The position numbers and the translations under genes are program-made. The notes beneath the pieces were generated by a model that saw only the letters and a list, made by a program, of their open reading frames with translations, was not told where the DNA came from and searched no databases. Below, piece after piece: positions 1,695 to 30,680 of a stretch of 35,000 nucleotides of DNA. The number at the start of each line of letters is the position of its first letter. The first letter of the stretch is position 1. Origin of the DNA: Boothiomyces macroporosus (taxonomy: Eukaryota > Chytridiomycota > Chytridiomycetes > Rhizophydiales > Terramycetaceae); assembly GCA_027604185.1 (NCBI GenBank), contig JADGKB010000126.1, forward strand, positions 1-35,000, read 5' to 3'.

Positions 1695-2889
1695 TCAGCA
1701 GGTTGAATATTTACCCATATAGGTGCATGCGCGGGATATAAAAGTTCCTTTAGGAATACAAAACGAATTCTTGAAAGGCGCATCGCATTCATAGATAGTA
1801 CTATTCGCCGGAATGGTAAACGGCCCTTTTAAGTTGTTTCCACTGATATACCTATGTCAGTCTACCCTTACAGGTTTTTCAATTTTGGGTATCCTTGGGA
1901 TTGATCGAAACCGGTAAATTTGTTGTTATTTAACGACAGGACCATTAAACTAGTCGGCAAAGGTGGAATGGTCCCATCTAACTGATTGTACTCCACTCGT
2001 CTATGTTTTAGAGCGTCTTACAATGATTTCAGCCATTTGTACTTTGGGAAAGATGGGAGCGGACCGGTCAATTTATTATTGCCTAGTTTACTACGTCAAT
2101 ACTAGATTACATGGTATCCATTGACCAAAAGATCCAGTTTGGAATTGTTCCAGAAAGCTGATTGTAGCTTATTTCCATGTAGCTGAGACTTATTAGGTTG
2201 GTAAACATGGGAAGTTGGCCAGAAAACCTATTGCCATTCAAAATTCTATGTTATCATATCCTTACAAGTATTTCAACTTTGGTAGATTTAAATCAGGCAC
2301 TTTACCACTTAGACCTCCACCAAGGAAAAAGTTGTATTCAACATTAATGTAGATCATGTTTGAGGGCCAAACAGAAGGTAAGGGTCCGGTAAAGTTGTTG
2401 AGTTCCAAGTGAATGTAGTTTAGATTTGGTAGATAGCTTAGAGATGGAATCCAACCAGCCAACTTGTTGAATTGCAAATCCAAAAAGTATAAATTGGTCA
2501 ATCCAGATAACGAAGGAAATTTACCGCGCAATCCATTGTATCCCAAACGGCTGGGTTAGTTAAGCTTACAGTTCCTTTAGATATTGCAGTCCTCCAGTGA
2601 ATACACCGATATTTGAGTCTAGCCCTGCAAATTGTGAGGTCCAATCTCTAGGGTTAACGGTATTTACAATACGCTAACACGTCCATTTATACAAGATATT
2701 CCGGTGAATGAGCAACAATTTGAAGAAGTGGAGGTTGGTGTATAAACTGCATCACCACCCATAGCCAACCAAGCTTTATTCAAGATGGCACAGTCTACAT
2801 TAGTATAAAGTACCATTAGTCAATGAAGATACTGACCGTTGCTCAATTGAACACTCAACCAGTAAAAGTAGCAATGGCAATACAAGCAT
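1695..2889 (-). CDS. Secreted plant-type LRR protein B (8 exons, 351 aa)
   Basis: Splicing seven introns gives an open 1056-nt frame ending in TGA at 1695. Introns are 2795-2813, 2648-2667, 2551-2569, 2246-2265, 2091-2110, 2001-2021 and 1852-1871 (19 to 21 nt). The protein has a hydrophobic leader (about residues 1-15), a cysteine-containing N-cap with NCCSFTGISC, about ten LRRs of the LxGxIP type, and a Cys-rich C-terminal cap. No transmembrane segment follows, so it is probably secreted; the ligand is unknown. It is a tandem paralog of the LRR gene 75 bp upstream. Both have exactly the same spliced length, but this copy has three introns the other lacks and lacks one that the other has. All introns in the LRR region split a codon after its second base at the same point of the repeat. 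Confidence 0.85.
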
Positions 2890-2964
2890 TTTGTAAAGTT
2901 TGAAACGCGTAGAGCAACAATTAAACAAACAAGCATTGTAAAAAAATGAAAATAGATTGAAAAA

Positions 2965-4122
2965 TCAACAGGTATAAAAGCTGCCGTCATATGAGCAGCT
3001 TCTTGGAATACTTGACCCTTTTGGAACGCAGAAAGAGTTCTTAAAGAGAGCATCACATTCGTAGATGCTGTTTGTTGAAGGTAACGTAAGTGGACCTTTC
3101 AGGTTGTTGTTTCCAATATATAAAGTTTCCAATTTTGAAGTAATTTGAGTTTGGTTGAACCCAGTAAATTTGTTATCATTCACAGCTCTACTTTCAGGTT
3201 GAGATTACAATAATATCAGCGAAGTTGGCAGCGCTGGTATAACACCACTTAATTGATTGTTATTTACGCGTAGAGATCGCAACCACTTGAACTTTGGAAA
3301 CGATGGAAGTGGACCAGTCAGTTTATTATGACTTAGTTTGCTAATGTAAGATATAAATTACATGCTGTCCATTGACCAAAAGACCCAATTTGGAATGGAG
3401 CCAGAGAGTTGGTTGTAACTCAGGTCTAAAAAGCTGAGACTAGGCAGGTTTGAGAATAACGGAATACTCCCTGAAAGTCTGTTTCCATCCAATATACTAA
3501 ATTAGCACCATTTACAGATATTTTAGTTTAGGAAGGGCCAGGTCTGGAATGGAACCACTCAATCCGCCTCCCATAAAGAAATTGTATTCAATATTGATAT
3601 ATGTAATGTTGACAGGCCAAGCAGTAGGTAATGTGCCAGTAAAGTTGTTTAGTTCTAAATGGACATAGTTTAAATTAGTAAGGAAAGTCAAAGCAGGGAT
3701 AGAACCGGTTAATTGGTTTTGTTGCAAATCCAGATAGGTAAGGCTGCTTAGTCCTCCAAGAGAAGGAAAGTGGCCACGGAGATTATTATATCCCAAATAC
3801 AAATATTGTAGGTATTGTAACCCTCCACTAAAACTTCCAATCCAGGCATTCTTTCCAGAAAACTTTCCTCTCCAATCGCTTGCATTAGTTTAATTATTAC
3901 AGTATCGAAACTCGTCCATTCACACAGCTTATCCCAGTGAATGAACAGCAGTTGGATGAAGTACTGGTCGGAGTGCTTGTTTTGCTTCCTCCCATATGCA
4001 GCCAAGCAGTGTTAAGAATAGCACAATCTAGTTAGCAAAAAGATACCATTGGCCAATGATGAAGTTCTCTTTTCGACAGTGGAGCATTCGCAAAGCAATG
4101 CAAGCAGAAACAACGATTTCAT
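2965..4122 (-). CDS. Secreted plant-type LRR protein A (6 exons, 351 aa)
   Basis: The start is the ATG at 4122. Five introns are at 4028-4046, 3879-3900, 3497-3515, 3341-3361 and 3188-3208 (19, 22, 19, 21, 21 nt). The exons sum to 1056 nt and end in TGA at 2965. The leader (MKSLFLLALLCECS) suggests secretion. The N-cap carries NCCSFTGISC, and LRRs such as LSGSIP and LTGPLP fill about residues 80-320. The tail has five cysteines, ending in YTC. There is no kinase, membrane segment or GPI-type end. It is clearly homologous to LRR protein B along its whole length. Such LRR folds bind proteins or glycans outside the cell; the partner is not known. Introns 1 to 4 are at the same coding positions as in B, while intron 5 is private. 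Confidence 0.87.
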
Positions 4123-4558
4123 ACGCGGAAAGTTTAGCTATGCGCGTTCATAAACAAACTGCACTTGTCCAAATATGAACAATGGATTTATGCAAACACT
4201 TTGGTAGCAGACCAGCTGGATATTTATGGATATATACATATTCGCACAGCCATATTGCCTTTTGCCAATTGAGTGAGGCCATGTCAAAATTTTTCCGGAC
4301 TCTTAAGGTTTCAATTGGCAAATTTTGTGGCGGAATGTCTTTGATTTCAGTAAGAGAAAATCCACCACAAATCTTGCCGAAACCAATGGATTATTTACCG
4401 CCTGTTGCTCTGTAATCGCTTCCACCCTTGATCAGTCTCTTAAAGTTCTCTCTGGTAAGATTTAATCTTGTTTTTGTTTTTTGTGATCACAGCCACCCAG
4501 CTTGAATCATAAAAAGGGCTGTAACTTTTTACAGTATAAAAGTGAAAAACTCACAACA
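4123..4558. other. Divergent intergenic region, LRR A / cyclin
   Basis: It separates two divergently transcribed genes and should hold both promoters. I see AT-rich stretches and a short plus-strand open frame (4182-4415) with no recognisable domain. I do not call that frame a gene. Confidence 0.5.
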
Positions 4559-5143: not shown

Positions 5144-5241
5144 TATATATTATTTATTTATCGAATGGGGGCTTCTCGGAGTTTGTGTTTCCGTAAAAGA
5201 GCCACCCACTATTAAAAACCCAACACCAAAATCAAGCACTA

Positions 5242-6300: not shown

Positions 6301-6343
6301 CACTTTTTTCGTAATTTCCTATCCACGATTTTTTATCTTTCCA

Positions 6344-8146: not shown

Positions 8147-9916
8147 ATGTCTGCACTTGAAGAACTTGATGTGGAATCGCGAATGGAGTTGATCCATAGA
8201 CAACATCGCGAAGAAGAAATCAGAATAAATGCCAAGATCGACGCTGAAATTGAAAAGTACATCGACAATCCAATTCTTGGAATCCAACTGAAAAGCCCTT
8301 TCATTTCCCGTCCATCGAACCCTTCGTTGTTCTTTATCGTCCCTAACGAATTTGCCGAAAGATTTTGCTACTATGGTTTCTCGCCATTGCTAAAAAATTT
8401 GTTTGGTCAAGTTTTAGGGTTGACCACTTACTACTATGGCTTGGATGGAAAGCTCACTGGGGAGCCAAACAACTCTGCTGTCAACCAATTAAAATTGAAC
8501 TTTGATTTTGCTACCTATCTCACTCCTTTGATTGGTGCCTTTGTATCTGACTCTTTCTTGGACAAATACAAGACTATTATGCTCTTCAGTTCTTTGTACA
8601 TGGTTGGAATGTATTTACTCTCTTTCGGAACTAACCCACACATTTTAGGCTTCCAGGCTGTATTTGCCCCTATCACAACTGCAACTCCTCTAAACGACAC
8701 TGTTGCACAATCTGGTGTGCAATTTGCTGCTGATCCTAATGTTTCTCATGTTAATCCATCTATTATCTACAGTGCCTTGGCATTCTTGGCTCTTGGAACT
8801 GGTGGTATCAAAGCTTGTGTTTCTGCTCACGGCGGTGATCAATTCTTGGAAAAGCAAACCTGGGGATTGAACACTTTCTACACTATTTTCTACATTGCTA
8901 TTAATGTTGGTGCTATGATCTCTGGATTTGTTACTCCAAATGTTAAAAAGCAAAACTGCTTTGGGGTTGAAGGAGATTGCTACAGTAACGCTTTCTTTAT
9001 TTGCGCTGGTGTATTCACTTTTGCCTACTTTATTTTCGGAATTGGTGTTCGCTACTACCGTGTCGTTCCACCAGCTGGCAGATTTATTATTTGGGATTTG
9101 ATTTGCGCAGGAACCACTAGATTGGTCAAGGGAGAAGAATATGCCAGGAAGAAGTATGGGAAGGCTCTTTTGGTCGAGGCTGCCGATTTGGCCAAAGTAT
9201 TGGTTGCAATTTTACCAACGCCAATTTTCTGGATGGGTTTCAATCAAAACTCCAATATTTGGCAAGACAGCACTGATCGTTTGGGAACTGCTGTCATGCT
9301 ATCGGAAACTTTGAACTCGGTTGTCAATCCAATCTTCATTGTCTTGCTTGCACCAATCTTCAACAACTACATCTATCCACACGTTCCAAAGAAGTATGGG
9401 CTTTTGCACCGAATGTGTGTGGGATACTTGTTTGCAGCTGCTTCTTTTGTTGCTTGCGCTTTGATTGAAAACTATGTGGAAGATCGCTGTACCATTAATA
9501 CTTCCTTGACAAAGAATGACTACTACTTTGGCAAGTGCGCTTATCCTCAAATTGACAATATGATATGGGCCATCCCATACTTCCTTATTACTACTGGGGA
9601 GGTCCTAGTCTCCATTTCTGGATTAAACTTTATGTACGAAGAAGTAGGAAAGAGAACAAAGTCCTCGTCACTTGCCCTATGGTTGCTCACTTCCTCTATT
9701 GGCTCCTTTATTGCATCTTGCTTGTTGAAGGCGGTCAACCCAGTTCTCAAAAGCGAATCTGGAAACTCTTATGTCTACTTTTACTACCTCTGCGCAGTCA
9801 TCATCATGTGCGCATTTGTACTACAATGTTTTTTGACTTGGTGGTATGTCCCAAAAGCAATGCGAAAAGAACAAGAAGTAGTCGAAGAGATTGAAGTCTC
9901 AAAGGAAAAACCATAG
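8147..9916 (+). CDS. PTR2: PTR2-type proton/oligopeptide symporter (589 aa)
   Basis: I use the ATG at 8147. The frame extends upstream only with non-ATG codons, and the start gives a soluble N-terminus of about 60 residues before the first membrane helix, as in fungal PTR2. Family marks are ERFCYYG at 71-77 (the ExxERFxYY proton-coupling motif), GTGGIKACVSAHGGDQF at about 217-233, and FYTIFYIAINVGAMIS at about 243-258 (the second PTR2 signature). Near the end, a GEVLVSISGLNFMYEE segment matches the conserved helix 10 region. About 12 membrane helices are expected in the plasma membrane, importing di- and tripeptides with protons. There is no intron. It converges with SCAR over a 76-bp gap. 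Confidence 0.95.
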   Translation: MSALEELDVESRMELIHRQHREEEIRINAKIDAEIEKYIDNPILGIQLKSPFISRPSNPSLFFIVPNEFAERFCYYGFSPLLKNLFGQVLGLTTYYYGLDGKLTGEPNNSAVNQLKLNFDFATYLTPLIGAFVSDSFLDKYKTIMLFSSLYMVGMYLLSFGTNPHILGFQAVFAPITTATPLNDTVAQSGVQFAADPNVSHVNPSIIYSALAFLALGTGGIKACVSAHGGDQFLEKQTWGLNTFYTIFYIAINVGAMISGFVTPNVKKQNCFGVEGDCYSNAFFICAGVFTFAYFIFGIGVRYYRVVPPAGRFIIWDLICAGTTRLVKGEEYARKKYGKALLVEAADLAKVLVAILPTPIFWMGFNQNSNIWQDSTDRLGTAVMLSETLNSVVNPIFIVLLAPIFNNYIYPHVPKKYGLLHRMCVGYLFAAASFVACALIENYVEDRCTINTSLTKNDYYFGKCAYPQIDNMIWAIPYFLITTGEVLVSISGLNFMYEEVGKRTKSSSLALWLLTSSIGSFIASCLLKAVNPVLKSESGNSYVYFYYLCAVIIMCAFVLQCFLTWWYVPKAMRKEQEVVEEIEVSKEKP

Positions 9917-9992
9917 ACATTTTGTGAAATACATTCCTTTAACTGTACTTTTTATCTACTTTGGATTTAAAGCCGTACTACAAACATCTATT

Positions 9993-11207
9993 CTAATCCC
10001 ATCCCTCGTCATCTTCATCTTCATCTAAAATGAACTGAAAAATACCTTGGTCACTTTCACTAGCTTCTACTGCTGCTCTTCTCATTAGTATGGCGGCAAC
10101 TTCTGACGGTTCGCTCGCTTTTTTCTTTTCTTTCTGAGACAATTCTGGCCCTGTTGTTTTCTTTAGCACAAACTGTATTAGCAATTAGTACTTGTTTGCT
10201 TCGAATGTCGCCTAGGAACCCGTTTATGTTGGAAGAAGTCTCTGACGTACCTGCTGCTGGAGTAGCTGGAGTAGCTGGAGTAGCTGGTGTTCCAGGAGCT
10301 GGTGGTGCACCTCCAGGTGGTGGAGGGGGTGGTGCAAGCATTGCTGGAGGACTATATTAAAATAAAAGTACGGTGGTGGAGGAGGAGGTGCTGCTTTTGG
10401 TGGAGGAGCAGCTTTAAACGCACTCGCAGGACTGGGAATATTTGGTGTGGAGGGTGTATCAGCTTTAACCCTTTCTCTAGTCTTTGCAGTGCTAGTAAAC
10501 AACCCAGGCGACTTTGGCGCATTATCTGGTGTTTGGTCATCTCTATCCAACGTAATCGACAATCTTCGCATATCGGTACTAGTCTTGACTCTTCTCTTTG
10601 CTCTCTTGCTATCTTGATCCTTTTGCAGCAGAATTTTCCATTCTTCAACAAAGAATTCTGGGTACGAGAATAGTTTCATGCATGATATTCCGTCTGTCCT
10701 GAATTGATCAAGTACTTCTAATGGCGGAACTGGCGGACACGATTCTAGATAGGTTGTGACAAATGTGGGTTTGGTTTTTGGAACAAAGACGTTGCTAGTA
10801 ATAAAATGCTGCGATTTCCAACAGTTTCCTGGGTTAATTAGTCTTACTTTCTCTATTAATTGGTTTAACTTCTGTAGAAACGCCTTTCTGGAATTCATTG
10901 ACTTTATCTCCTATTAAATCCAGCTTTGTTTGTAAATGATTGATCCTGTTTGATATCCTGATGGTGTGATTCGCCAAATCTTTTCATTATTTCGGAATTA
11001 CCTACAAATAACTCGCTAGCATGAGATGAAAAGTCTGATAACTGATCCAGTAAGCGTGTTAGTTGCATGAATGGCATCTGGATTAATCAAAAGTACTTTT
11101 TTTAATGCAAAAAGGTAGGGCGGATCAACGCCCACTCCAGAAGTATCTAGTTCTGGGATATTTAGCGATATTGGGCCTGCTGCAATTACTCTGTGTGGGA
11201 ATGCCAT
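9993..11207 (-). CDS. SCAR: SCAR/WAVE actin-nucleation promoting factor (6-7 exons)
   Basis: Removing introns 11078-11096, 10980-11001, 10829-10847, 10352-10371 and 10173-10191 (19 to 22 nt) gives 371 aa. The N-terminal SCAR homology domain includes a coiled-coil-like part (about residues 63-100) and CPPVPPLEVLDQFR at 137-150, followed by LFSYPEFFVEEW. A Pro-rich region spans about 240-290. A WH2 motif, FLGDIRSKQFVLKK, is at about 304-317 and is formed only after splicing. Central and acidic parts follow (VAAILMRRAAVEASESD, then DEDEDDEGWD with the final Trp). A possible sixth 21-nt intron at 10025-10045 would remove seven hydrophobic residues from the acidic tail and improve the match. SCAR activates Arp2/3 within the WAVE complex for branched actin. 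Its retention suggests crawling cells. Confidence 0.92.
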
Positions 11208-11333: not shown

Positions 11334-11891
11334 TTATTCGGCAGTGGAATCTCCGCTATTATCGTTTTGACCAGAATCAGCAGGCGATTCATATTCATCG
11401 GTTTTTTGATATTTCTGGAAGCGCTCTCCAGTCTGGAACTGTCTTATCAGTTCAGCTTCAGCTTCAATGTTGGATATAGCTTTGGTTCTAGCTTCAATCC
11501 TGATATGCTTTGCCCATTCAATTCCACACCGCTATTGTTAGTTAAATCTTACATTGCACAGGCTTCTAGCTCCGGTCGGACCTTTTCTCCATTGAGCCGT
11601 TTTATGACATTTGCACCACAAACATTCCCCAATTGAGGCAGTATGCTGGGCGACTTTACGTTTCTTGCCCATCTTTGGCTTCCTTTCAATCTTTTTAGCT
11701 TTGCTGTTAATTACTCTATTCATTCTGTTCATTCTCTTGATCAAAGATGACGAATTAATTTTGTGCACTGCAGGTTGTAGTGTATATCCGTACGCTGGAG
11801 CCGGCTGTTCGACAATCTCGATCGAGAATGTGATACCCATCATATTGCGGATCAAGTCAGATGGATGCGGAGGGTTTTTTCTTGGAGCCAT
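11334..11891 (-). CDS. GATA zinc-finger factor 1 (2 exons, 178 aa)
   Basis: Exon 1 (11553-11891) and exon 2 (11334-11531) are separated by a 21-nt intron at 11532-11552, inside the zinc finger. The finger reads CLWC, an 18-residue loop with [14 protein letters not shown], then CNRCGIEWAKH: a CX2CX18CX2C finger most like the white-collar/plant type. The N-terminus carries MAPRK, then GITFSIEI, then VHKINSSSLIKRM, all shared with the two GATA genes at 15180 and 16194. A basic patch (KKRK) precedes the finger. The C-terminal tail is acidic. It should bind GATA sites in DNA; targets are unknown. No PAS domain is present, so it is not a full photoreceptor. Confidence 0.9.
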
Positions 11892-11952
11892 GATAGATTA
11901 ATTAGTTGGGGTGGAAGTTTTAAAAGAAGCTTTTGAAACTTTTTCACAGCAG

Positions 11953-18252: not shown

Positions 18253-18277
18253 AGTAATTCAATTTTTTCAATTTTTC

Positions 18278-19515: not shown

Positions 19516-20378
19516 ATGACTTCTATCGCTTGCTGCTCCGGATTCATTGATAGGTTATTAATACTAATTCAGCGGTGTTCCAACTGGAACTGAAGAAACT
19601 ATAAACGGAGTTAAATGTTATGTTGCCAAACCAGCAACTCCTAATTCCCATGCTATTATTCTTGCAACTGATGTTTTTGGATACAAGCTACCAAACGCAC
19701 GCCTAATTGCAGATTCGTTCGCAAAGGAAGGTTTCTACACTGTTGTTCCGGATCTCTTCAACAATACCGAACCACCAGCCGACTGTTTGAATGATATTGA
19801 AACTCTATCTTCAAAGTACTGTAATGCTAACACAGAAATGCAGGATATCTGCAAAAAGCATATGGGTTTGGAAGAATGCTGTACTATTTCCCTTATTTCA
19901 TGATGTTCAACTCACCTGCATCTGGAATCAAGATTGTCAAAGATGTATTGCAGGAATTGAAAAGGACCCACAAAAAAGTTGGGGTTCAAGGTGCTTTAAT
20001 CTAATGGTAGGTTATTGCTGGGGAGGCCGTATAGCGGCATTGTTAGCTCAAGAAGATGACTTGATTGATGCCGCGTGTCCGGCTCATGCAGGTAAGCAGA
20101 TTTAACAAGGTGGGCTAAAGTATCCTGATGATATTGAAAAGATCAAGAAACCAACATTTTTTGTCAACGCTGAGATTGATATGTCAATGACTAAAGAACA
20201 AGCCCAGAGTGTCAGTGAAATTATGCAAAAAAAGGGTGACAAGTTTGGAGCAAAGCTCTATCCTGGTGTCAAGCATGGATTTGCTGTTAGGGGGGATGAG
20301 AATGATGAGCATGTAAAGAACCAACGCGTTGAAGCGTTTGGTGATGCTGTTGCTTTCTTTAAACGCATTTTCGCTTGA
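19516..20378 (+). CDS. Dienelactone hydrolase-like protein DLH2, copy 1 (5 exons, 261 aa)
   Basis: Introns at 19554-19572 (19), 19816-19835 (20), 19991-20010 (20) and 20092-20109 (18 nt) are all GT-AG. Spliced, the 786-nt frame runs from an N-terminal CC-containing segment through LATDVFGYKLPNAR and VVPDLFNNTEPPAD. It reaches GVQGYCWGGR with nucleophile Cys148, then VNAEID (Asp196) and YPGVKHGFAVRGDEND (His228), the Cys-Asp-His triad of the family. The length is normal. It is cytosolic by appearance; the substrate is unknown. This is the most intron-rich of the three paralogs and probably closest to the ancestral structure. It lies between DLH1 and DLH3, all on the plus strand. Confidence 0.88.
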
Positions 20379-20745
20379 CCAATAAACCATTTTTTTGCTT
20401 TATTTCAGCTGGCCAAAGTTCAACTTTTCTACTTGAATCATGAATGGATAATTTTGGATGCTTTAGTTCAATGTTTGGGGGTTTCTTACCGAAATACATT
20501 AAATAGTGATAATTATGCACAATGCAGATTTGCTAAACTGATTGGTAATTTTACACAATTTCAATTCCTAATCCAAGAACCGAATGCATCTAATTACCTC
20601 TATTCACCTGATTGAATTGTATTATTATATCTGTAAACCAGAAAGACACTTAATGCCTCAAGCTGTAGCCAAATTAAAACCCGACGGGTTCCGAATCTGG
20701 CTCGCAAACCACAACTATAAATTTCGAAAAAATAAAAAAACAGTC
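20379..20745. other. Intergenic region DLH2-DLH3 (also 29471-29837)
   Basis: 367 bp without a gene. A TATAAAT at 20716-20722, 30 nt before the DLH3 start, is a plausible core promoter. Two short frames here have no ATG or domain support. Confidence 0.45.
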
Positions 20746-21588
20746 ATGTCTTCAATTACTTGCTGTACCGGTTTCATTCATTCGTAAATGATTCTAATCT
20801 AGTGGCAAACCATCCGGAGATGAGGAAAGCATAAATGGAGTGAAATGTTATGTTGCCAAACCAAAAGTTTCCAACTCACATGCAATCGTAATTGCAACAG
20901 ATATATTTGGATACACACTTCCCAACTCGCGATTAATTGCGGATTCATTTGCAAAGGAGGGATATTACTGTGTCGTTCCGGATCTGTTTGAAGGGACAGA
21001 GCCGCCAGCGGATGTAATGACTGATTTTGATAATCTAATGTCAAAGTAACTCGAAACTAACCAGAACTGCGACTTTATCTCAAAAGGTTTATGCCTTCTT
21101 TAGAGTATTGTGGTATGGACCAAAATTCCTCTTATTCAATTCAGCTTCGTCTGGGATCAAAATCATTGAAAAAGTACTGCCAGATGTAAAGAAATCCTAT
21201 ACTAAAGTTGGAGTGCAAGGATATTGTTGGGGAGGCAAGATTGCAGCACTGATGGCCCATCACGATGGGTTAATAGACGCTGCGACAGCTGCTCATGCAG
21301 GTACCTAATTCTTACATAGGCGGATTAACGTACCCTACCGATATCCAAAATATCAAAGTGCCTACATTCTTTATGAATGCTGAAGAAGACCATGCAATTA
21401 CAGTCGAGCAAAAACAAACTATTGAGCGTATAATGAATGAAAAAGGGTCCAAGTTTGGATCAAAGATATATCCAGGAGTAAAGCACGGGTTTGCTGTTAG
21501 AGGGAATGAAAATGATGGGAACGATAAGACCCAAAGAGCTCAAGCTTTCTTGGATTCTGTATCTTTTTACAAGAGAATATGGGAATAA
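20746..21588 (+). CDS. Dienelactone hydrolase-like protein DLH3, copy 1 (4 exons, 261 aa)
   Basis: Introns at 20784-20802, 21046-21064 and 21301-21319 are each exactly 19 nt. The spliced frame is 786 nt, the same as DLH2. The nucleophile region GVQGYCWGGK is continuous: the intron DLH2 has just before the Cys is absent. YPGVKHGFAVRGNEND supplies the His, and the Asp position has FFMNAEEDHA. The middle reads SKTATLSQKVYAFFR, visible only after splicing. Enzyme class is as for DLH2 (alpha/beta hydrolase, Cys nucleophile); the substrate is unknown. The 3' end has AATAAATAAAG right at the stop, a likely polyadenylation signal. Confidence 0.88.
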
Positions 21589-21811
21589 ATAAAGTTTTGA
21601 GTTGGATTATCTTTTTGTAAGGCAATCAAGAGAGTTACGCGCCATAAAGTGTGAGATTGTAACTTGTTTGACGGGAAATCGCCCACCGGAATGTGATTCA
21701 AGTATGCAACACTATAAAGTATGGATAGTGACTGAGACTGGAATGTGGCTGGACAGCATGTGGCATTTCACTTTGTACCATTTGGCTGTGGGGTAGAAGC
21801 TTCCTTCCACA

Positions 21812-22393
21812 ATGACAGTAGACGCACCACCAGAGTATAGCGAGCTTCCATCATATAGCGAAGCACAAGGACATATCTCTGTATTTGAAATTCATCACCA
21901 GCCGCATTCGTTTGATGTCTCAATCAAGAAGGAAAATAATCCAAACACAGTGTACTATGGCCATTACAGAAAGTCAGCAGCAACTCCAAGCCTAGTAATT
22001 AACTTTTCTTATCGATTTGCTTGGACCTTTACCTTTAAAGAAGGCGGGAAGCATGGCCACACTGTAGCAACGTTGCAGCCAGACTCTCTGTTCAATTTGA
22101 AATTTGATGGAAAAGAAATACATATTAAATCAGTCAATAATCACTTTCAATGGCAGTACGGTAATCAAGAATATGTATGGACAAAGGGTGAACCAAATAG
22201 ATATAATTTGAAGCCTCTAAATTCTGAATTGATAATTGCTGAATATAACAGTTTAAGCTCAACGAAAATACCAGGAACCGTGATTATCAAAGAAAGGCAT
22301 GGCATTGCTGATTTGATCTTGTTCACTGGTGTAGCAATTGCTTCCAAACTAAACGAAAATGTTCCAATGGCAGCGTTTAATATCATGGTTTGA
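21812..22393 (+). CDS. Tubby-like-fold protein 1, copy 1 (193 aa)
   Basis: It begins with a Pro/Tyr-rich leader containing PPEYSELPSYSEA, a PPxY-type motif that could bind WW domains. A beta-rich domain of about 150 residues follows with alternating strands, repeated Trp (FAWTFTF, HFQWQYG, EYVWTKG) and a hydrophobic closing helix near LILFTGVAIASKL. That pattern is what I would expect of the tubby C-terminal/LURP-one-related fold of membrane- or lipid-associated proteins. It is the most divergent of three such genes in the block. There is no signal peptide and no intron. The fold assignment is inference from strand pattern and from similarity to the other two. Confidence 0.5.
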   Translation: MTVDAPPEYSELPSYSEAQGHISVFEIHHQPHSFDVSIKKENNPNTVYYGHYRKSAATPSLVINFSYRFAWTFTFKEGGKHGHTVATLQPDSLFNLKFDGKEIHIKSVNNHFQWQYGNQEYVWTKGEPNRYNLKPLNSELIIAEYNSLSSTKIPGTVIIKERHGIADLILFTGVAIASKLNENVPMAAFNIMV

Positions 22394-22483
22394 TTTACAA
22401 TATATTGCAAAGATATTCAAATTCCGCTGTCTGTATTTAGTTTAATCTAAACCAATTGGAAAGTATAATAGTATATCTTTATT

Positions 22484-23257
22484 TTAAGCAAAATCACAAA
22501 CAATAACGTCTCCTGATTGAGCGCATCCAACTTGAGTAGCCCCGCTGTCAAGGATAATAGAGCAGTGAGTAGTGGTTGCTGGTGCTACTGGTGCAGCGCA
22601 AACACCTGGAGAGCTCATTTCATTTTCTACCCACAGGCCAACAGCTTGACTGCAATCACTAACTCCTGGACCAGCTTCAATTTGGCCAGTGACGAATCCA
22701 CCAGGTCCGTCTCCTAATCCCCAGTGTCCTACCCATGGATTGGCGACTTGCAATGATCTTTGTGCAAAAGCGTCATTCCAGTTGAGAGGAGTGTTAATTC
22801 CTCTGTATTGTTGGCGCTTGGCATTCAATTCAGCAGTACATAATCCTTGAGCGGGTTGCTGTTGGCACCAGTCAATAACAACTGGCGCATTGTTGCCTTG
22901 TCCTCTAATACATTTGCCTGTTGAAGTAGCCATCTGCCACTGGTTAAAGTTGCTGTTCCATTGAATCAATTGCCCAGTAGCTTTTCCACAAGGATGCAGG
23001 AGGATGGTTGAGCCAATTGAAGGATCGTTGCTTTCAGCAGACCAACAAAGTCCGCGGTTAGCTTGGGATACTACCCATGCAGCACCGTCAGCAGTAAACC
23101 ATTGTTGAGTAGCATCGCCAGCACAGTTTCGTAACCATAGCTGGTTTCCATCGCCAATGTTGGAGGTAAGACATGCACCTCCGATCTGTTCTTGTTGCGG
23201 AGACAAGAGACCGTGAGATTGAGCGAGAGCAGCAGTGAATAATAGAGCAAGAGACAT
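22484..23257 (-). CDS. Secreted ricin-B-type lectin / CAP domain fusion, copy 1 (257 aa)
   Basis: A short signal peptide (MSLALLFTAALA) precedes a beta-trefoil lectin region at about 17-135, with QxW-type repeats (QQWFTADG, IQWNSN, QWQMATS) and paired Cys. The second half is a compact CAP/SCP domain: LNAKRQQYRGINTPLNWND, then GHWG, LWVENE and a final THCSIIL...TQVGCAQSG...VVCDF-like block, as at the end of CAP proteins. The protein is thus a sugar-binding module joined to a CAP domain, exported from the cell. No catalytic toxin domain is present, only the lectin fold. There is no intron. It converges with tubby-like 1 over 90 bp. A GCCTATAAATA lies 31 nt before the ATG. Confidence 0.82.
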   Translation of the reverse strand: MSLALLFTAALAQSHGLLSPQQEQIGGACLTSNIGDGNQLWLRNCAGDATQQWFTADGAAWVVSQANRGLCWSAESNDPSIGSTILLHPCGKATGQLIQWNSNFNQWQMATSTGKCIRGQGNNAPVVIDWCQQQPAQGLCTAELNAKRQQYRGINTPLNWNDAFAQRSLQVANPWVGHWGLGDGPGGFVTGQIEAGPGVSDCSQAVGLWVENEMSSPGVCAAPVAPATTTHCSIILDSGATQVGCAQSGDVIVCDFA

Positions 23258-23873
23258 TTAGTTTATGATAGCCATTAGATTGGACGGTATTTATAGGCGA
23301 TTCGGTGCCGAACACGGATCAACCCCTTAATAACGGTCTTTTTCTTTGAATTCTTTGTTTCTATTTACAGTAGTGTTACAATTTCCTGGTCTATATTTGG
23401 TTGCTAATTCGGATTTTGCAGCAGGGTTTGAAAGGGATTTTTCGGCATGTTTGATTGACACCGAATTATTCAGGGTCTCGATTGAGCTCAAAGAGCTTGA
23501 AAAAGGTTTGCTAAATTCAGCGACACTTATAGTTGTTGTCACACCTACTTTGGTCAAAGATACCAGAATTCAATGTCAATTGATAAAGAATGGATCGCAG
23601 GGGGCTTTGTATTGAAGTTTACCACATTAATCCTCATTATTAATCGCAACTGCAACGGTGGCTATAGTGCCAATTTGTATGGCTGTTTCTTCAGCACTAC
23701 CAACATTTCCTCATGATACATTGTGACTTTCCAAAGTGCCGATCGATATTAAATTTAATTTCAGCAATTCTCTGGCCAATTACCATCACAAAAGACAAAT
23801 CATTAAATCTTTGTGTCAACCGCGTGTGTGGCTTTGGGCAGTGGATTTAAAGCCCAAACTGAGTTTGAAATTA
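23258..23873. other. Intergenic region upstream of ricin-B/CAP and tubby-like 2 (also 32350-32965)
   Basis: 616 bp between divergent genes. Overlapping plus and minus frames at 23327-23615 lack ATG starts. A 19-nt GT-AG segment on the minus strand near 23546 does not join them into a convincing product. I see no domain. Confidence 0.45.
23288..23298 (-). promoter_or_regulatory. TATA-box-like element of ricin-B/CAP, copy 1
   Basis: GCCTATAAATA on the minus strand, 31 nt before the ATG at 23257; the same 11-mer precedes the Ser/Thr-rich secreted gene. It is repeated at 32380-32390. Confidence 0.5.
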
Positions 23874-24548
23874 ATGACCATTCCCCTACCTCAGTACCAA
23901 GACAGCCCCCCAGATTATCCTCCAGAAGCGCAGTCAAGTCCATTTGCTGCCCCAGGGTATAACCAAGTTTCGACTACACAATGGTACCATATTTACAGAG
24001 AGAGCATTTATGATCGAAACGCTCATGTTAAACATCAAGATAAAACGGAACACAAGTTTTATGTACATTTCCATTATGAAAGACCTCAAAAGCAAGTGGG
24101 ATATATAGTAGTTGTACGTCCATGGAAGTACGATTTCCACTGGGTGGACAAGAACGGTCCTATCGCAATGTCAATTGAACCAATATTGCAGAGTGCCAAG
24201 CAATTCCCAGACTTTTTAATCAAGGATAATGCAACCAGAAAAGAAATTATCATTGACAGAGGATCTTCTTTTAGTAGGAAATACAAATGGGAATTGGATG
24301 GTGTAACATACTGCTGGAAAGGAATGACGCTTTCTGCTAATATGCAGCTGTTGCAATACCCGGAAAAGAAAGTTGTTGCAATGTACCATAGAAATTCTCG
24401 TTTTTCTTTCAAGAAAGAAGGCAAGATGGCCATTGAACCAGAGTACTATGGAATGACTAATATCATTATCGTCACTGGAATGGCAGCAGAAATTTGGGAG
24501 TATGGCGATGAGGATGATCTTGACACTGGGTTGTCTGTTGGGAAATGA
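23874..24548 (+). CDS. Tubby-like-fold protein 2, copy 1 (224 aa)
   Basis: I start at the ATG at 23874, giving MTIPLPQYQDSPPDYPPEA. This Pro/Tyr-rich leader with a PPxY motif (PPDY) matches the paralogs, while the longer upstream frame has no ATG and no similar sequence. The domain shares long blocks with tubby-like 3: QWYHIYRESI, WVDKNGP, EIIIDRGSSFSRKY, LPEKKVVA-type and RFSFKKEGK. The end has MAAEIWEYGDEDD. There is no signal peptide, membrane helix or intron. Function is unknown; a phospholipid-scramblase/tubby-like beta-barrel is my best guess. Confidence 0.6.
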   Translation: MTIPLPQYQDSPPDYPPEAQSSPFAAPGYNQVSTTQWYHIYRESIYDRNAHVKHQDKTEHKFYVHFHYERPQKQVGYIVVVRPWKYDFHWVDKNGPIAMSIEPILQSAKQFPDFLIKDNATRKEIIIDRGSSFSRKYKWELDGVTYCWKGMTLSANMQLLQYPEKKVVAMYHRNSRFSFKKEGKMAIEPEYYGMTNIIIVTGMAAEIWEYGDEDDLDTGLSVGK

Positions 24549-25124
24549 ATAAAAATATCTAGAATATTTATCACGAAAGATTCATTAGGAAGAATTTGTT
24601 GGCAGTTACAGTCTGCTCTCATTGATCATTACTGATTAGAAGCATGACTTCAGCGTGCCATTGATTATTTCCACCAAGAAACTCTCAAATACACGCTTTT
24701 AAATTAGCAAATGGGTTAATGTGATTGTCATGGTCCTAATTCAAGACTTAAATGAAATATAGAGAAATTTTATGCAAATTGTTTCAGGTTAACCTCTGCA
24801 ATGATTGCCATTGGAACAATAAGATTAATTAAAGATAAAATTCAGGCTATTGTATGCTGTGTGTTGTTTGCCACTGACGCTCGGGATTTGGTCTTTTTTA
24901 AGTTAATTTTCGGCGAGGAATGGCTTGATTAATATTGATATAATCCAGGCTAAACATAGTAATCAATAGACACCACAAGTTCCTGGTGTCGTTATTTTCA
25001 ATCATCCAGCTGTCCTAATACAGTACTGGTAGGTCTTAAATATTTTACAAAAAGCCTGCTTTTCGGTGGCCATGCTTGAAGAAACCATTAAAAGCTCCAA
25101 CAAAATCACTTTATCCACCTAAAG
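24549..25124. other. Intergenic region tubby-like 2-3 (also 33641-34216)
   Basis: 576 bp, AT-rich. It holds a small perfect inverted repeat, GACACCA-8 nt-TGGTGTC, at 24969-24990 (copy at 34061-34082), which could be an operator or a weak hairpin. No gene is apparent. Confidence 0.45.
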
Positions 25125-25772
25125 ATGGCCGCCAAAATTGAACAAGAGCTCTCACGATATAATCAATTCACCGACTCGTCAACGCTACCTCCTGCTCCTG
25201 CCTATCAAGCAGCAGCGACATCTCAATGGTTTCATATCTACAGGGAAAGCATTACCGATAGAAATGCCTTTGTCAAACATCAAGACAAGAATGAAGTCAA
25301 ATTTTATGTAGAATTCCATTACCGAAGTATTGCCAACATTGGATCTCAATTTAGTAGGCTTACATACAGAAGATTTGAATTCAACTTCTATTGGTTAGAC
25401 AAGAATGGACCGAAAGCATTTACCATTAAGCCGATTTTACAAAAAACGAATCTGCTTACAGATTTGCTCATCACCGACTTTTCAACAGGCAAAGAAATTA
25501 TAATTAATCGAGGATCCATTTTTGGCAGAAAATACCTTTGGGAAATAGATGGAATCCAGTACCAATGGAAAGGGGCTCTATTTAACACGAATCTAGAATT
25601 AACCCAACTCCCAGAGAAAAAAGTTGTTGCAGTGTACCATCGAGCAGCTAGGTTTTCGTTCAAGAAAGAAGGAAAGCTGGAAGTCAAACCAGAGTACAAT
25701 TCCAACTGCAACTTGATTATAGCCACTGCTTTTGCTGCGGAATTATGGGAAGATGGTGATAATGTCGAATAA
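25125..25772 (+). CDS. Tubby-like-fold protein 3, copy 1 (215 aa)
   Basis: A start ATG follows directly on an AAAG context, with a leader containing LPPAPAYQAAA (Pro/Tyr-rich but without a strict PPxY). The remaining ~185 residues align end to end with tubby-like 2: QWFHIYRESITDRNAF, WLDKNGPKAF, KEIIINRGSIFGRKY, LPEKKVVAVYHR, RFSFKKEGK and FAAELWEDGD. It is probably cytosolic. Strong conservation of the KEGK and RGSxFxRKY blocks argues for a real fold under selection. There is no intron. It lies 136 bp before the repeat junction. Confidence 0.62.
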   Translation: MAAKIEQELSRYNQFTDSSTLPPAPAYQAAATSQWFHIYRESITDRNAFVKHQDKNEVKFYVEFHYRSIANIGSQFSRLTYRRFEFNFYWLDKNGPKAFTIKPILQKTNLLTDLLITDFSTGKEIIINRGSIFGRKYLWEIDGIQYQWKGALFNTNLELTQLPEKKVVAVYHRAARFSFKKEGKLEVKPEYNSNCNLIIATAFAAELWEDGDNVE

Positions 25773-25869
25773 AATTTCATAGAAACTACCGTATGTCTAA
25801 AAACACCTTTAAGTCCGATAAAACAGTTAAAGGAAATACAGAATATTACTGATATAATTATTTTTATTA

Positions 25870-25885
25870 AGTGTTAAAGAACACT
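25870..25885. repeat. Short inverted repeat near the unit end
   Basis: AGTGTT-AAAG-AACACT, a 6-bp stem with a 4-nt loop, 23 nt before the duplication junction; repeated at 34962-34977. It could be a transcript end hairpin for tubby-like 3. A link to the breakpoint is only a guess. Confidence 0.3.
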
Positions 25886-25908
25886 ATTAGATTAACCACC
25901 GAAACCGT

Positions 25909-26122
25909 TGTGCAATAACAACGCAAAGCTGCGTGCTCATCAGCTACTATATTATTCCGTTTCGATAAATTATCAGATAGATCCAACTCCTTGACAGCTA
26001 GGCGGCTATGACGTACTATTGCATCAAGAGGATTAGCAGTAATGCAAAGCCAAATTTGAAAAAAGTGCGATGGTGGTTTGGTCGCCTGGTTGCTGCACTG
26101 TGATCAGACAATCAAAATTCAA
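25909..26122 (-). pseudogene. Truncated, frameshifted copy of the ORF at 16764
   Basis: The unit start removes the last ~18 codons of the minus-strand frame, and the extra A at 26059-26064 shifts it. What remains has no start and no proper end. If the parent was never a gene, this is just flanking DNA. Confidence 0.2.
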
Positions 26123-26282
26123 ACTGGATGGTATCCATCTAAGCAGAACCTAACCGCACTGTAGCACCGAAATGATAACAGCTATCAATTTCAATGTCTA
26201 TTGTTCCTGTTGATCTTGTACCACCTTTGGCTGGCTTGATTGCCACGTCTTTTTTTTCCAGTTTTTTCTTAATTAAAAAGCA

Positions 26283-27344
26283 ATGGAGCAACAGATAAAA
26301 ACACTGCTATTAATCACAACATTCAATTACTTGCTCGGCATTATTTATAACAAGATTAACATACTCAAATGGCGTCATTATTACTCGCCGCTTGTCGTCG
26401 CTATACCTTTTGTACTCACTAATAACATTCCTAGCTATCTGTTGATCCTATCGCTTGGGTACTTGTCGTATTATTTGATCAAATACAATGCGCATGCTTA
26501 TTGGATGCCTTACCTGGTGTATATGCTCTGTGCTGCTGGAATGGCGCTTGGATGCTGGTCAGATTTTGTGGTCAAACTAGGGCTAGTTCATGTAATCAAG
26601 AAAATCATTGGATTCTGTTGGAACGTTTACGACTCTGCGGAGCCTGTGTATCATTTAGAAATCAAGGACTTGTCTGAAAGTCATGAACTGGTGGAAACCA
26701 AACCGAAACCACGGAATGTGAATGAAAAGGAAGTGATTTATGATATCCCTCGATGTAGGGAGTACCTCGGCTACTTGTTTTTCTTTCCTTCCTTTTATTT
26801 CGGGCCTTCACTCACATTCAATCAGTACCGGAAATCAATAGAAAAGAAGTCAGTGTCATTTGTGATTCCGATTATAGAAACCTTTTTCACTACACTTGCA
26901 GCTTGTCTGTTTCTGATCAAGTTTGGCAAGGGATCTCTGGGATACGTTCTAGTTGGAGGATTAGTAGTTAGAATTGGGATGTTTGTCTTTTACAAGGCAA
27001 GCGAAGGCGTAATGATCCTGTGTGGTGTCGAAAGCGACGAACCTGTGGATCGTATTGGTTTCTTGACAAACACATATCTGTACGGACCGCTTTTCTCATC
27101 ATCTCTAGCCCTCGTGAATGAAATCAAAATGCAAAACAGAATATTAAACTATGTAATCAGGGAGCTGTACTTGAACTACTGCTTCTATTCTGTAGTATAT
27201 CCAGGATTCGACGGTTACTCGGGAGTGTATTTTGTTGGGCACTTGATGGTCTTTGGGCTTTTGCTTTGGAGACTGGCGAGCCATGGAGAAAAGAGTGCGA
27301 GCACTGGTATTGAATGGGTCTGTAAAAAGCTAATATCTTTATAA
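26283..27344 (+). CDS. Divergent MBOAT-like membrane protein, copy 2 (353 aa)
   Basis: The translation is identical to copy 1 at 17191, including Pro in place of the expected catalytic His and the lost WN motif. The upstream ~150 bp differ from copy 1 by one substitution and one indel, so the promoter is nearly the same. Confidence 0.55.
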   Translation: MEQQIKTLLLITTFNYLLGIIYNKINILKWRHYYSPLVVAIPFVLTNNIPSYLLILSLGYLSYYLIKYNAHAYWMPYLVYMLCAAGMALGCWSDFVVKLGLVHVIKKIIGFCWNVYDSAEPVYHLEIKDLSESHELVETKPKPRNVNEKEVIYDIPRCREYLGYLFFFPSFYFGPSLTFNQYRKSIEKKSVSFVIPIIETFFTTLAACLFLIKFGKGSLGYVLVGGLVVRIGMFVFYKASEGVMILCGVESDEPVDRIGFLTNTYLYGPLFSSSLALVNEIKMQNRILNYVIRELYLNYCFYSVVYPGFDGYSGVYFVGHLMVFGLLLWRLASHGEKSASTGIEWVCKKLISL

Positions 27345-27369
27345 AGTAATTCAATTTTTTCAATTTTTC

Positions 27370-28203
27370 ATGTCTTCGTTGGCTTGTTGTGAAGGCTTTG
27401 TTGATAGGTAGACTTTACTAATACAGCGGCACACCAATCGGACAGGAACGCACCATTAATGGGATCAAGTGCTACGTCAGCGAGCCAAAGGAGCACAACC
27501 AGAAGGCAATTATATTGGCTACCGATGTCTTTGGATTCAAAGTCCCTAATATCAGGCTAATGGCCGATGCCTATGCTGCATTAGGCTACTACTGTATCAT
27601 TCCCGATTTCTTTAATGATACTCAACCCCCAGCGGACCTAATGGGAGACTTGAACAAAATGGAGGACAAGGAAAGCACTATTGGGCATAAACTGTATACG
27701 TACGGGCGAATGCTTTACAACTTCCCAAAGTTTCTCATCCTCAACTCGCAAACTCATTCAATCAATATGGTTAAATCCTTGATCCCTTATTTGAAGGAAA
27801 GAAATACAAAGATTGGTGTGCAAGGTAAGGATTTGCTTACTCTGGTTTCTGCTGGGGTGGAAAAGTGTCAGTGTATATTGCTCATGAAGAGTTGGTCGAT
27901 GCCTGTGTTGCTTGTCATGCAGGTAATCTCTACTAACAAGGTATCCTAAGTGTCCCAAAAGATATTCAGAAAATCAAGACACCGACTTTCTTTATCAATG
28001 CGGAAATTGACAGTTTGCTGTCTGTAGACCAAGCTAAACGAATCGAGGAAATTATGAAGGAGAAGCAAGGTGGGGCAAAACTTTATCCTGGTGTCAAGCA
28101 TGGATTCGCTGTAAGGGGTGATGAGAATGACGAGCATGTCCGCAAGCAGCGAGCGGAAGCTTTCAATGACGCAGTAGCATTTTTCAAACAGTATCTGCAA
28201 TAA
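27370..28203 (+). CDS. Dienelactone hydrolase-like DLH1, copy 2
   Basis: Same exon structure as copy 1. Introns are at 27408-27426, 27825-27844 and 27923-27940. The unusual GT...TG intron is present here too, so the change predates the block duplication or was copied with it. The product, if spliced, is 258 aa with the Cys-Asp-His triad. Confidence 0.75.
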
Positions 28204-28607
28204 AAGTCTTGATTCTGTCTAGTAACCTAGTCACTGGTGCAGCCAATTGTGCTGAAGTAGTGTTTCCAATTCTGCTGGAAGTACTCTTACACTCTTCTAT
28301 AAAGAGAATATCTTATTTCATAAATTATTGGTGTTAAACATTCTCCAGGATATCACATACCCCAAACCCAACAACTCTAATGATTATGAATACTTGAAGC
28401 GGGATTTAAACCCCAATCCTCAGAGATTTCTCTTCTATAAATTGTCTTTTTAGCTCTAAATTTCTTTACATGTGATGCCAAGTGCTTTTTGAAGCAGCTG
28501 CCTCCTTATACTGCATTTAGAGCACACTGTCCGGTGTTTAAATGGTATTCCATATCATGAATTCATTGAGTTTTTCATTATATCCGATCGTGTATTTTTC
28601 CACCAAA

Positions 28608-29470
28608 ATGACTTCTATCGCTTGCTGCTCCGGATTCATTGATAGGTTATTAATACTAATTCAGCGGTGTTCCAACTGGAACTGAAGAAACTATAAACGG
28701 AGTTAAATGTTATGTTGCCAAACCAGCAACTCCTAATTCCCATGCTATTATTCTTGCAACTGATGTTTTTGGATACAAGCTACCAAACGCACGCCTAATT
28801 GCAGATTCGTTCGCAAAGGAAGGTTTCTACACTGTTGTTCCGGATCTCTTCAACAATACCGAACCACCAGCCGACTGTTTGAATGATATTGAAACTCTAT
28901 CTTCAAAGTACTGTAATGCTAACACAGAAATGCAGGATATCTGCAAAAAGCATATGGGTTTGGAAGAATGCTGTACTATTTCCCTTATTTCATGATGTTC
29001 AACTCACCTGCATCTGGAATCAAGATTGTCAAAGATGTATTGCAGGAATTGAAAAGGACCCACAAAAAAGTTGGGGTTCAAGGTGCTTTAATCTAATGGT
29101 AGGTTATTGCTGGGGAGGCCGTATAGCGGCATTGTTAGCTCAAGAAGATGACTTGATTGATGCCGCGTGTCCGGCTCATGCAGGTAAGCAGATTTAACAA
29201 GGTGGGCTAAAGTATCCTGATGATATTGAAAAGATCAAGAAACCAACATTTTTTGTCAACGCTGAGATTGATATGTCAATGACTAAAGAACAAGCCCAGA
29301 GTGTCAGTGAAATTATGCAAAAAAAGGGTGACAAGTTTGGAGCAAAGCTCTATCCTGGTGTCAAGCATGGATTTGCTGTTAGGGGGGATGAGAATGATGA
29401 GCATGTAAAGAACCAACGCGTTGAAGCGTTTGGTGATGCTGTTGCTTTCTTTAAACGCATTTTCGCTTGA
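28608..29470 (+). CDS. Dienelactone hydrolase-like DLH2, copy 2 (261 aa)
   Basis: Introns at 28646-28664, 28908-28927, 29083-29102 and 29184-29201. The sequence matches copy 1 in all exons I compared. Confidence 0.88.
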
Positions 29471-29837
29471 CCAATAAACCATTTTTTTGCTTTATTTCAG
29501 CTGGCCAAAGTTCAACTTTTCTACTTGAATCATGAATGGATAATTTTGGATGCTTTAGTTCAATGTTTGGGGGTTTCTTACCGAAATACATTAAATAGTG
29601 ATAATTATGCACAATGCAGATTTGCTAAACTGATTGGTAATTTTACACAATTTCAATTCCTAATCCAAGAACCGAATGCATCTAATTACCTCTATTCACC
29701 TGATTGAATTGTATTATTATATCTGTAAACCAGAAAGACACTTAATGCCTCAAGCTGTAGCCAAATTAAAACCCGACGGGTTCCGAATCTGGCTCGCAAA
29801 CCACAACTATAAATTTCGAAAAAATAAAAAAACAGTC

Positions 29838-30680
29838 ATGTCTTCAATTACTTGCTGTACCGGTTTCATTCATTCGTAAATGATTCTAATCTAGTGGCAA
29901 ACCATCCGGAGATGAGGAAAGCATAAATGGAGTGAAATGTTATGTTGCCAAACCAAAAGTTTCCAACTCACATGCAATCGTAATTGCAACAGATATATTT
30001 GGATACACACTTCCCAACTCGCGATTAATTGCGGATTCATTTGCAAAGGAGGGATATTACTGTGTCGTTCCGGATCTGTTTGAAGGGACAGAGCCGCCAG
30101 CGGATGTAATGACTGATTTTGATAATCTAATGTCAAAGTAACTCGAAACTAACCAGAACTGCGACTTTATCTCAAAAGGTTTATGCCTTCTTTAGAGTAT
30201 TGTGGTATGGACCAAAATTCCTCTTATTCAATTCAGCTTCGTCTGGGATCAAAATCATTGAAAAAGTACTGCCAGATGTAAAGAAATCCTATACTAAAGT
30301 TGGAGTGCAAGGATATTGTTGGGGAGGCAAGATTGCAGCACTGATGGCCCATCACGATGGGTTAATAGACGCTGCGACAGCTGCTCATGCAGGTACCTAA
30401 TTCTTACATAGGCGGATTAACGTACCCTACCGATATCCAAAATATCAAAGTGCCTACATTCTTTATGAATGCTGAAGAAGACCATGCAATTACAGTCGAG
30501 CAAAAACAAACTATTGAGCGTATAATGAATGAAAAAGGGTCCAAGTTTGGATCAAAGATATATCCAGGAGTAAAGCACGGGTTTGCTGTTAGAGGGAATG
30601 AAAATGATGGGAACGATAAGACCCAAAGAGCTCAAGCTTTCTTGGATTCTGTATCTTTTTACAAGAGAATATGGGAATAA
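29838..30680 (+). CDS. Dienelactone hydrolase-like DLH3, copy 2 (261 aa)
   Basis: Introns at 29876-29894, 30138-30156 and 30393-30411, each 19 nt. Otherwise as copy 1. Confidence 0.88.

Follow-up and report, generated by a model that had tools for sequence, protein, structure and literature searches.

The introns of the chlorarachniophyte nucleomorph measure 18–21 nucleotides (nt) and number more than 800 in about 300 genes, according to passages of PMC10245619. The same passages describe Mikrocytos mackini, in which 224 introns of 16–17 nt are handled by a reduced spliceosome of 17–19 proteins; splicing has transcriptome support there, and it is argued that deletion has shortened the introns down to a functional floor. 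In Stentor coeruleus, introns are 15–16 nt long and occur in 18% of the genes, as stated in sections of PMC9505925; its authors note that Cwc25 is without its GGG plug there and propose that space is required for the lariat loop of 10 nt, and their table lists neither Slu7 nor Prp18 as found. For Paramecium, the abstract of PMC5014332 gives introns of about 25 nt, and for Trichomonas a passage of PMC12316389 gives few introns overall, with a type-B class of 23–25 nt and a second class of 56–196 nt. Here we describe candidate introns of comparable size in a 35,000-nt stretch of contig JADGKB010000126.1 from Boothiomyces macroporosus (the window) and in wider samples of the assembly to which it belongs, which comprises 15,203,306 bases in 216 contigs.

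Our reading, to which we assign a probability of about 0.94, is that these segments are genuine U2-type introns, that nearly the whole intron population of the genome lies at 18–23 nt with a mode of 20, that the number of introns is within the chytrid range, and that the parts of the splicing machinery tested are ordinary. We infer that it is the spliceosome that takes these segments out of the RNA. The original prediction had likewise taken them for real spliceosomal introns, narrowly spread in length and close to the lower limit, and evidence from beyond the window, namely gene-finder results and profile gaps, points the same way. The nucleomorph, as portrayed in the passages cited above, resembles this genome in its near-identical intron lengths, their narrow spread and the many introns in a compact genome; it is the relic nucleus of an alga, whereas here the introns, some 20,000 by extrapolation, would belong to a fungus's own genome of 15.2 megabases (Mb). 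Paramecium and Trichomonas share short spliceosomal introns and, in Trichomonas, a branch motif near the AG, but on the published passages their introns are longer, and Trichomonas differs further in its second class and its few introns.

Rebuilding nine gene models of the window from raw sequence gave 32 distinct canonical GT–AG introns, two of 18 nt, 15 of 19 nt, eight of 20 nt, five of 21 nt and two of 22 nt. Seven of these are in LRR1, five in LRR2, six in SCAR, one in the GATA-like gene, three in the Rxt2-like gene, one in GATA2, and two, four and three in DLH1, DLH2 and DLH3. The original count of 32 distinct introns, all of 18–22 nt and with a mode of 19, was re-derived exactly for the window, although the mode moves to 20 in the wider sample. 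A YTAAY branch motif is present in 23 of the 32. The accompanying claim that every frame is restored holds for eight of the nine models, which are open from ATG to stop in a single frame; the exception is DLH1, which needs the removal of a further 20-nt segment. That the proteins make family sense was confirmed by Pfam for all three DLH proteins, both GATA proteins and LRR1 (the one LRR protein submitted), and by homologues for SCAR, but not for the protein called Rxt2-like; neither the latter nor SCAR matched any Pfam family at E ≤ 0.001.

The wider sample covered 226 kilobases (kb) from 21 contigs, that is, positions 1–26000 of the window and one 10-kb stretch from each of the 20 largest contigs. 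Positions 26001–35000, a repeat, were left out of all gene-finder counts, while a first spacing test still covered the whole window. A flat gene-finder model, whose only training came from the codon usage in 30 long open frames, treated intron lengths of 10–300 nt as equally likely and demanded only GT and AG at the ends. With this model, GT–AG introns piled up at 19–22 nt, and 81 of 197 fell at 18–22 nt, compared with six of 197 for the decoy pair GA..TG and six of 177 for CT..AC; under a stricter penalty, the corresponding figures were 37 of 81 and, for GA..TG as the sole decoy, three of 46. Because the decoy dinucleotides yield so few calls at 18–22 nt, a chance origin of the short-intron peak is excluded. 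A trained model placed 309 of its 390 introns at 18–23 nt, with 2, 51, 128, 72, 45 and 11 introns at 18, 19, 20, 21, 22 and 23 nt, respectively, and hence the mode of 20. Every one of the 21 stretches contains such introns, as do 70 of the 85 predicted genes, at about 3.6 per predicted gene, and their retention would lead to a frameshift or a stop in 295 of the 309 cases. If the sample is typical, the genome would hold roughly 20,800 introns, a figure made uncertain by duplicates in the assembly. Other chytrids have 4.7–6 exons per gene, according to a passage of PMC5364385.

A second survey dispensed with the gene-finder and covered the whole genome with Ras and TCP-1 profiles, the excess gap between exon matches serving as an estimate of intron length. 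Ras matches were paired up to a distance of 1,500 nt and with at most 15 missing or doubled residues, and two of the pairs (705 and 824 nt, contig C4) were dropped because they bridge adjacent tandem copies; a profile match that reads through an intron conceals that intron from the test. Within-gene gaps measured 19–23 nt in 14 of 19 cases for Ras and in 13 of 17 for TCP-1. A narrow single mode below 25 nt was found in 226 kb of the 15.2 Mb and, genome-wide, in these two protein families.

It is unlikely, in our judgement, that the population is a mixed one, in which tiny introns dominate but a minority of conventional introns of 40–300 nt, amounting to a few percent or more, was missed. Such a minority could hide behind the 73 of 390 introns that the trained model called at 41–300 nt, and a gene-finder based on codon usage is weak for long introns between short exons. 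In the flat model, the 226 kb gave 92 GT–AG introns of 41–300 nt at the looser penalty, below both decoys (144 and 134), and 34 against 30 for GA..TG at the stricter penalty, which would allow for a few real ones; the long introns of the flat model were dropped as candidates, as decoys yield similar or higher numbers. The 75 trained-model calls of at least 28 nt had lower splice-site scores (mean 7.16 versus 9.53), and ten of them have one end in common with a good intron of 18–23 nt. Long calls were judged singly for several cases, in the window only: those of 217, 230, 265 and 290 nt bridge neighbouring genes, one of 93 nt splits an intact open frame, and one of 94 nt displaces a 22-nt SCAR intron whose removal fits the Kappamyces homologue, so that all of these look wrong. 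No within-gene gap of Ras or TCP-1 lies between 50 and 300 nt except one of 114 nt, in TCP-1, which sits within a single open frame. The 226 kb thus contain no clear excess over decoys that would represent a conventional intron class, although a small minority is possible; many conventional introns elsewhere in the genome were what the original prediction had named as evidence to the contrary.

The proteins predicted after splicing are continuous across the junctions. Unspliced, the best six-frame piece of U2AF65 scores 230.7 bits, under the family cut-off of 310.3, whereas removal of four introns of 19–20 nt gives 342.7 bits over a single stretch of residues 15–446. A RhoGAP gene with seven introns (L021:5409–7658) yields a spliced model of 700 amino acids that aligns with the 700 amino acids of the protein of Boothiomyces sp. 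JEL0866 with zero gaps across the seven junctions. Pfam scans were made of eight and a further eight spliced proteins, hand-picked and not a random sample, the first eight being chosen among 22 listed of 32 genes whose introns are all 17–24 nt long. Domains were found in eight of eight hand-picked proteins, and 18 of the 30 junctions of the eight scanned proteins lie inside the matched stretch. The ribosomal protein eS4, from whose model two introns (22 and 21 nt) were removed, aligns with a solved ribosomal eS4 over residues 1–262 with one single-residue gap far from the junctions, and the spliced NDUFS4 and Ste24 proteins also align well with solved structures.

These alignments bear on the possibility that the segments are not introns but frameshift errors of the assembly, or marks of decayed genes, which we consider extremely improbable. 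The assembly does contain an exact tandem repeat of 8.9 kb that is a possible artefact, and CWC25 occurs in two contigs with identical scores. Errors are not expected to produce GT...YTAAY...AG, nor a single length; the interrupted genes include core genes (eS4, NDUFS4, SF1, Slu7 and U2AF65), and the RhoGAP alignment runs free of gaps over 700 columns.

Several points weigh against the reading of a uniform population of genuine introns. The introns are known here from DNA and predicted proteins alone, and the database proteins of Boothiomyces and Globomyces also seem to be predicted ones. The first junction of eS4 comes directly after the start methionine, so that only the junction at residue 87 tests the alignment, and junction 158 of Ste24 adjoins small alignment gaps. 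The trained model learned from its own output and prefers the motifs and lengths it has learned; its other 81 calls comprise two below 18 nt, six of 24–40 nt, 30 of 41–100 nt and 43 of 101–300 nt. Outside 19–23 nt, the Ras gaps measure 16, 25, 29, 40 and 46 nt and the TCP-1 gaps 34, 43, 44 and 114 nt, among which gaps of 40–46 nt may each span two introns. The motifs are weak: among the 309 introns, 46% have T and 22% have G at position +5, despite a canonical 5′ end of U1 and canonical pairing regions in U1 and U6.

The machinery searched for in this genome is of the usual kind. A U1 small nuclear RNA (snRNA) is present at 68.8 bits, slightly under the Rfam cut-off of 69.5, and has an ordinary 5′ end, AUACUUACCUG; U2 snRNA occurs in two copies with a canonical GUAGUA pairing region, and U6 snRNA is present with a canonical ACAGAGA. 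No match to U5 snRNA was obtained in the genome, and likewise none in any control genome. All six protein families searched (SF1, U2AF65, Slu7, Prp18, Cwc25 and Yju2) are present, U2AF65 passing its family cut-off as a spliced protein only. The losses of U1, U2AF or SF1 that had been suggested are thus not seen, and none of the six protein families shows a loss of the Mikrocytos kind. Cwc25 reads MGGGDLNLKKSWHP, with the GGG plug, at its presumed start methionine, and its gene model extends further upstream. Five of the six splicing-factor gene models contain introns, nearly all of 19–24 nt, and Yju2 has none; the Cwc25 model includes one call of 31 nt, and its stretch upstream of MGGG is doubtful. 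CWC25 is found with identical scores on two contigs (C49:3194–3481 and C100:4789–5076), which could be a duplicated stretch or a second haplotype.

Non-spliceosomal removal of the segments, by DNA elimination, by ribosome hopping or by an enzyme of the Ire1 or tRNA type, is in our estimate very improbable. Ribosome hopping does occur, at the byp elements of yeast mitochondria. A length of 18–22 nt is far below that of most spliceosomal introns, and the segments have been seen in DNA alone. Yet their ends are GT and AG, a branch motif stands at a fixed distance from the AG, the pairing regions of U1, U2 and U6 are canonical, and the splicing factors searched are in place; moreover, the comparable introns of Mikrocytos have published transcriptome support, as reported in passages of PMC10245619.

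The consensus of the introns consists of exonic AAG or AAA, a relaxed 5′ splice site, (A)AG/GTAATT, an AT-rich spacer, YTAAY, 2–4 nt and (T/C)AG. Their AT content is 70.6%, against 60.1% for coding sequence. GT and AG ends were a search condition in the gene-finder sets. Among the 309 introns of the trained set, 191 have YTAAY, 288 have some branch-like motif and 21 have none; in the flat set, which has no motif preference, YTAAY occurs in 54 of 92 introns of 15–25 nt. The branch A of these 54 lies at position 14 in 23, 15 in 21, 16 in six, 17 in three and 11 in one, so that 50 of 54 fall at 14–16, and the trained set agrees (88, 72, 21, 7 and 3 of 191, in the same order). Beyond the branch A, 5 or 6 nt follow in 170 of the 191. 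A trade-off within the 5′ splice site was not detected between –1G and +5G (p = 0.78) or between +4A and +5G (p = 0.16), nor one between +5G and a strong branch motif (p = 0.48); –1G and +4A are weakly negatively associated (p = 0.014, uncorrected for four tests), and we take no trade-off as real.

These dimensions would be accounted for if deletion bias had pushed ordinary U2-type introns down to a functional floor, set by the space that a standard spliceosome needs: a branch A at least 14 nt from the 5′ end and about 5 nt after it. The excised RNA would then form a lariat whose loop measures about 14–16 nt and whose tail measures 5–6 nt. As far as the parts of PMC9505925 on its introns go, Stentor resembles this genome in its genome-wide, tiny, AT-rich GT–AG introns with a fixed branch A and a 5-nt tail, and in snRNAs that resemble those of other eukaryotes. 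It differs, on the same parts, in a loop of 10–11 nt, as opposed to 14–16 nt here, and in having introns in 18% of its genes, while 70 of 85 predicted genes here have one of 18–23 nt. The changes reported for Stentor, a Cwc25 without the GGG plug and missing Slu7 and Prp18, were not encountered here, where the plug and both proteins are present. Loops of 14 nt therefore seem to need no change of the Stentor type, and the floor at 14 nt may be where the standard spliceosome stops. Mikrocytos, in the passages available, shares a narrow length class of spliceosomal introns, but has few introns and a strongly reduced spliceosome, in contrast to the dense introns and the lack of any loss in six families here.

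A broader proposal, to which we give slightly less than even odds, is that in an entire chytrid clade, comprising at least Boothiomyces, Terramyces and Globomyces, all or almost all of tens of thousands of introns measure about 20 nt and are served by an unmodified spliceosome, that their sharp edges (branch A at 14 nt or later, about 5 nt beyond it) mark the true geometric minimum of the standard spliceosome, and that the Stentor loop of 10–11 nt is possible only after loss of the Cwc25 plug and possibly of Slu7 and Prp18. The floor could instead be a by-product of selection for clear signals, since the 5′ motif and the branch motif both take up space, and would then say nothing about what is physically feasible for the spliceosome; we hold this alternative to be plausible, though somewhat less likely than not. 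The pairing sites of U1 and U2 together take up about 12–14 nt, which favours this alternative. Splicing of shorter introns in Mikrocytos and Stentor, as given in passages of PMC10245619 and PMC9505925, also favours it. It is harder to reconcile with the sharpness of the edge, since only one of the 54 flat-set YTAAY introns has its branch A before position 14, and 23 have it at exactly 14, and with the weak conservation of positions +5 and +6 despite that edge. The earlier description of a spliceosome working near the physical minimum can be kept to the extent that the introns form a tight size class not far above the lower limit; those of Stentor (15–16 nt) and Mikrocytos (16–17 nt), on the published passages, are shorter.

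Within the window, the first five of the nine genes are encoded on the minus strand. LRR1 (1695–2889) codes for 351 amino acids once its seven introns are out, at 1852–1871, 2091–2110, 2246–2265 and 2648–2667 (20 nt each), 2001–2021 (21 nt), and 2551–2569 and 2795–2813 (19 nt each). The five introns of LRR2 (2965–4122) lie at 3188–3208 and 3341–3361 (21 nt each), 3497–3515 and 4028–4046 (19 nt each) and 3879–3900 (22 nt). The SCAR/WAVE gene (9993–11207; 364 amino acids) has introns at 10025–10045 (21 nt), 10173–10191, 10829–10847 and 11078–11096 (19 nt each), 10352–10371 (20 nt) and 10980–11001 (22 nt). The best homologue of its protein, at 97% coverage, comes from Kappamyces and goes by the name of Wiskott-Aldrich syndrome protein member 1; Batrachochytrium salamandrivorans has homologues too. 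In the Kappamyces alignment, the junctions at residues 37, 62 and 106 fall inside continuous stretches, and junction 312 is continuous as well, the nearest small gap lying a few residues away; junction 258.7 is within a proline run and junction 354 in a poorly conserved tail. The GATA-like gene (11334–11891; 178 amino acids) has its single intron, of 21 nt, within the GATA finger at 11532–11552, and the gene earlier called Rxt2-like (12476–13132; 199 amino acids) has three of 19 nt each at 12587–12605, 12851–12869 and 12955–12973.

The remaining four genes are on the plus strand. GATA2 (16194–16717; 167 amino acids) again has one intron within the finger, of 20 nt, at 16536–16555. DLH1 (18278–19111) contains introns of 19 nt (18316–18334) and 18 nt (18831–18848); its frame and the GFCWGGK motif are intact only if an additional 20-nt GT...TG segment at 18733–18752, which is not counted among the 32, is also excised, giving 258 amino acids. 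This segment is possibly an intron with a non-AG 3′ splice site, or else the gene is broken. At the same place, DLH2 has a canonical intron and DLH3 has none. DLH2 (19516–20378; 261 amino acids) carries introns at 19554–19572 (19 nt), 19816–19835 and 19991–20010 (20 nt each) and 20092–20109 (18 nt), and DLH3 (20746–21588; 261 amino acids) carries three of 19 nt each at 20784–20802, 21046–21064 and 21301–21319. Intron positions 12.7 and 172.3 are common to all three paralogues (the latter being 171.3 in DLH1), and 93.7 is common to DLH2 and DLH3. The window also contains an exact tandem duplication, in which 16968–25908 and 26060–35000 are 100% identical over 8,941 nt at an offset of 9,092; it may be a very recent event or an assembly artefact. 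Identical second copies of DLH1–3 with their introns consequently lie at 27370–30680 on the plus strand, and the DLH1 segment 18733–18752 recurs at 27825–27844. The span originally given for the introns ran to position 30411, within the second copy, and the nine DLH introns of that copy, being repeats, add no independent evidence. Between these copies and DLH3, positions 22484–23257 on the minus strand hold one uninterrupted frame whose sole Pfam match is a beta-trefoil (ricin-type) carbohydrate-binding lectin domain.

Protein similarity indicates that the organism is very probably a true fungus, a chytrid of the Rhizophydiales with Boothiomyces and Terramyces as its nearest relatives, which makes the earlier wording of a fungus-like genome more definite. 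The intronless gene for a PTR2-type transporter at 8147–9913 of the window encodes a protein 99% identical to one labelled 'lgn', 87% identical to that of Terramyces sp. JEL0728 and 57% identical to that of Globomyces pollinis-pini, and the RhoGAP protein is 96% identical to that of Boothiomyces sp. JEL0866. Boothiomyces belongs to the Terramycetaceae, Rhizophydiales, Chytridiomycota. From what is known of its relatives, we presume that this chytrid is free-living.

The RhoGAP protein also offers a view of the relatives. The protein deposited for Globomyces sp. JEL0801 is without 14, 12 and 15 residues that G. pollinis-pini keeps, and the ends of the three missing pieces coincide, to within one residue, with junctions 59.3, 282.0 and 396.0. 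Such losses would arise if a gene-finder, faced with introns below its minimum length, extended them into the upstream exon, and the simplest reading of this one protein is that Globomyces would have short introns at three of the same positions; it probably shares the ultrashort-intron trait. Against shared positions, three proteins of other relatives (labels jgi and lgn) are uninterrupted through junctions 178, 282, 396 and 439. If these are unspliced open frames, on which the records are silent, intron gain or loss within the order is possible. The same three proteins lose alignment just past position 480.

Searches of titles, abstract beginnings and passages in the open-licence literature found no report of introns of about 20 nt in a chytrid or any other fungus, though one may exist elsewhere. 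Tiny introns were found described for the genomes of a group of ciliates, of a parasitic rhizarian and of the relic nucleus of an alga, and here the genome is that of a chytrid fungus. We regard it as a new, independent lineage with genome-wide ultrashort introns, beside Stentor, Mikrocytos and the nucleomorph. Where gene-finders impose a lower bound on intron length, the deposited proteomes of these fungi may have lost the ends of exons, as one Globomyces sp. JEL0801 protein seems to have done; comparisons among early fungi would be distorted as a result. The combination of normal splicing genes, among those tested, with an ordinary number of introns separates intron size from both intron loss and splicing-factor loss, and it offers a testable lower limit on the length of introns that a normal spliceosome is able to excise.

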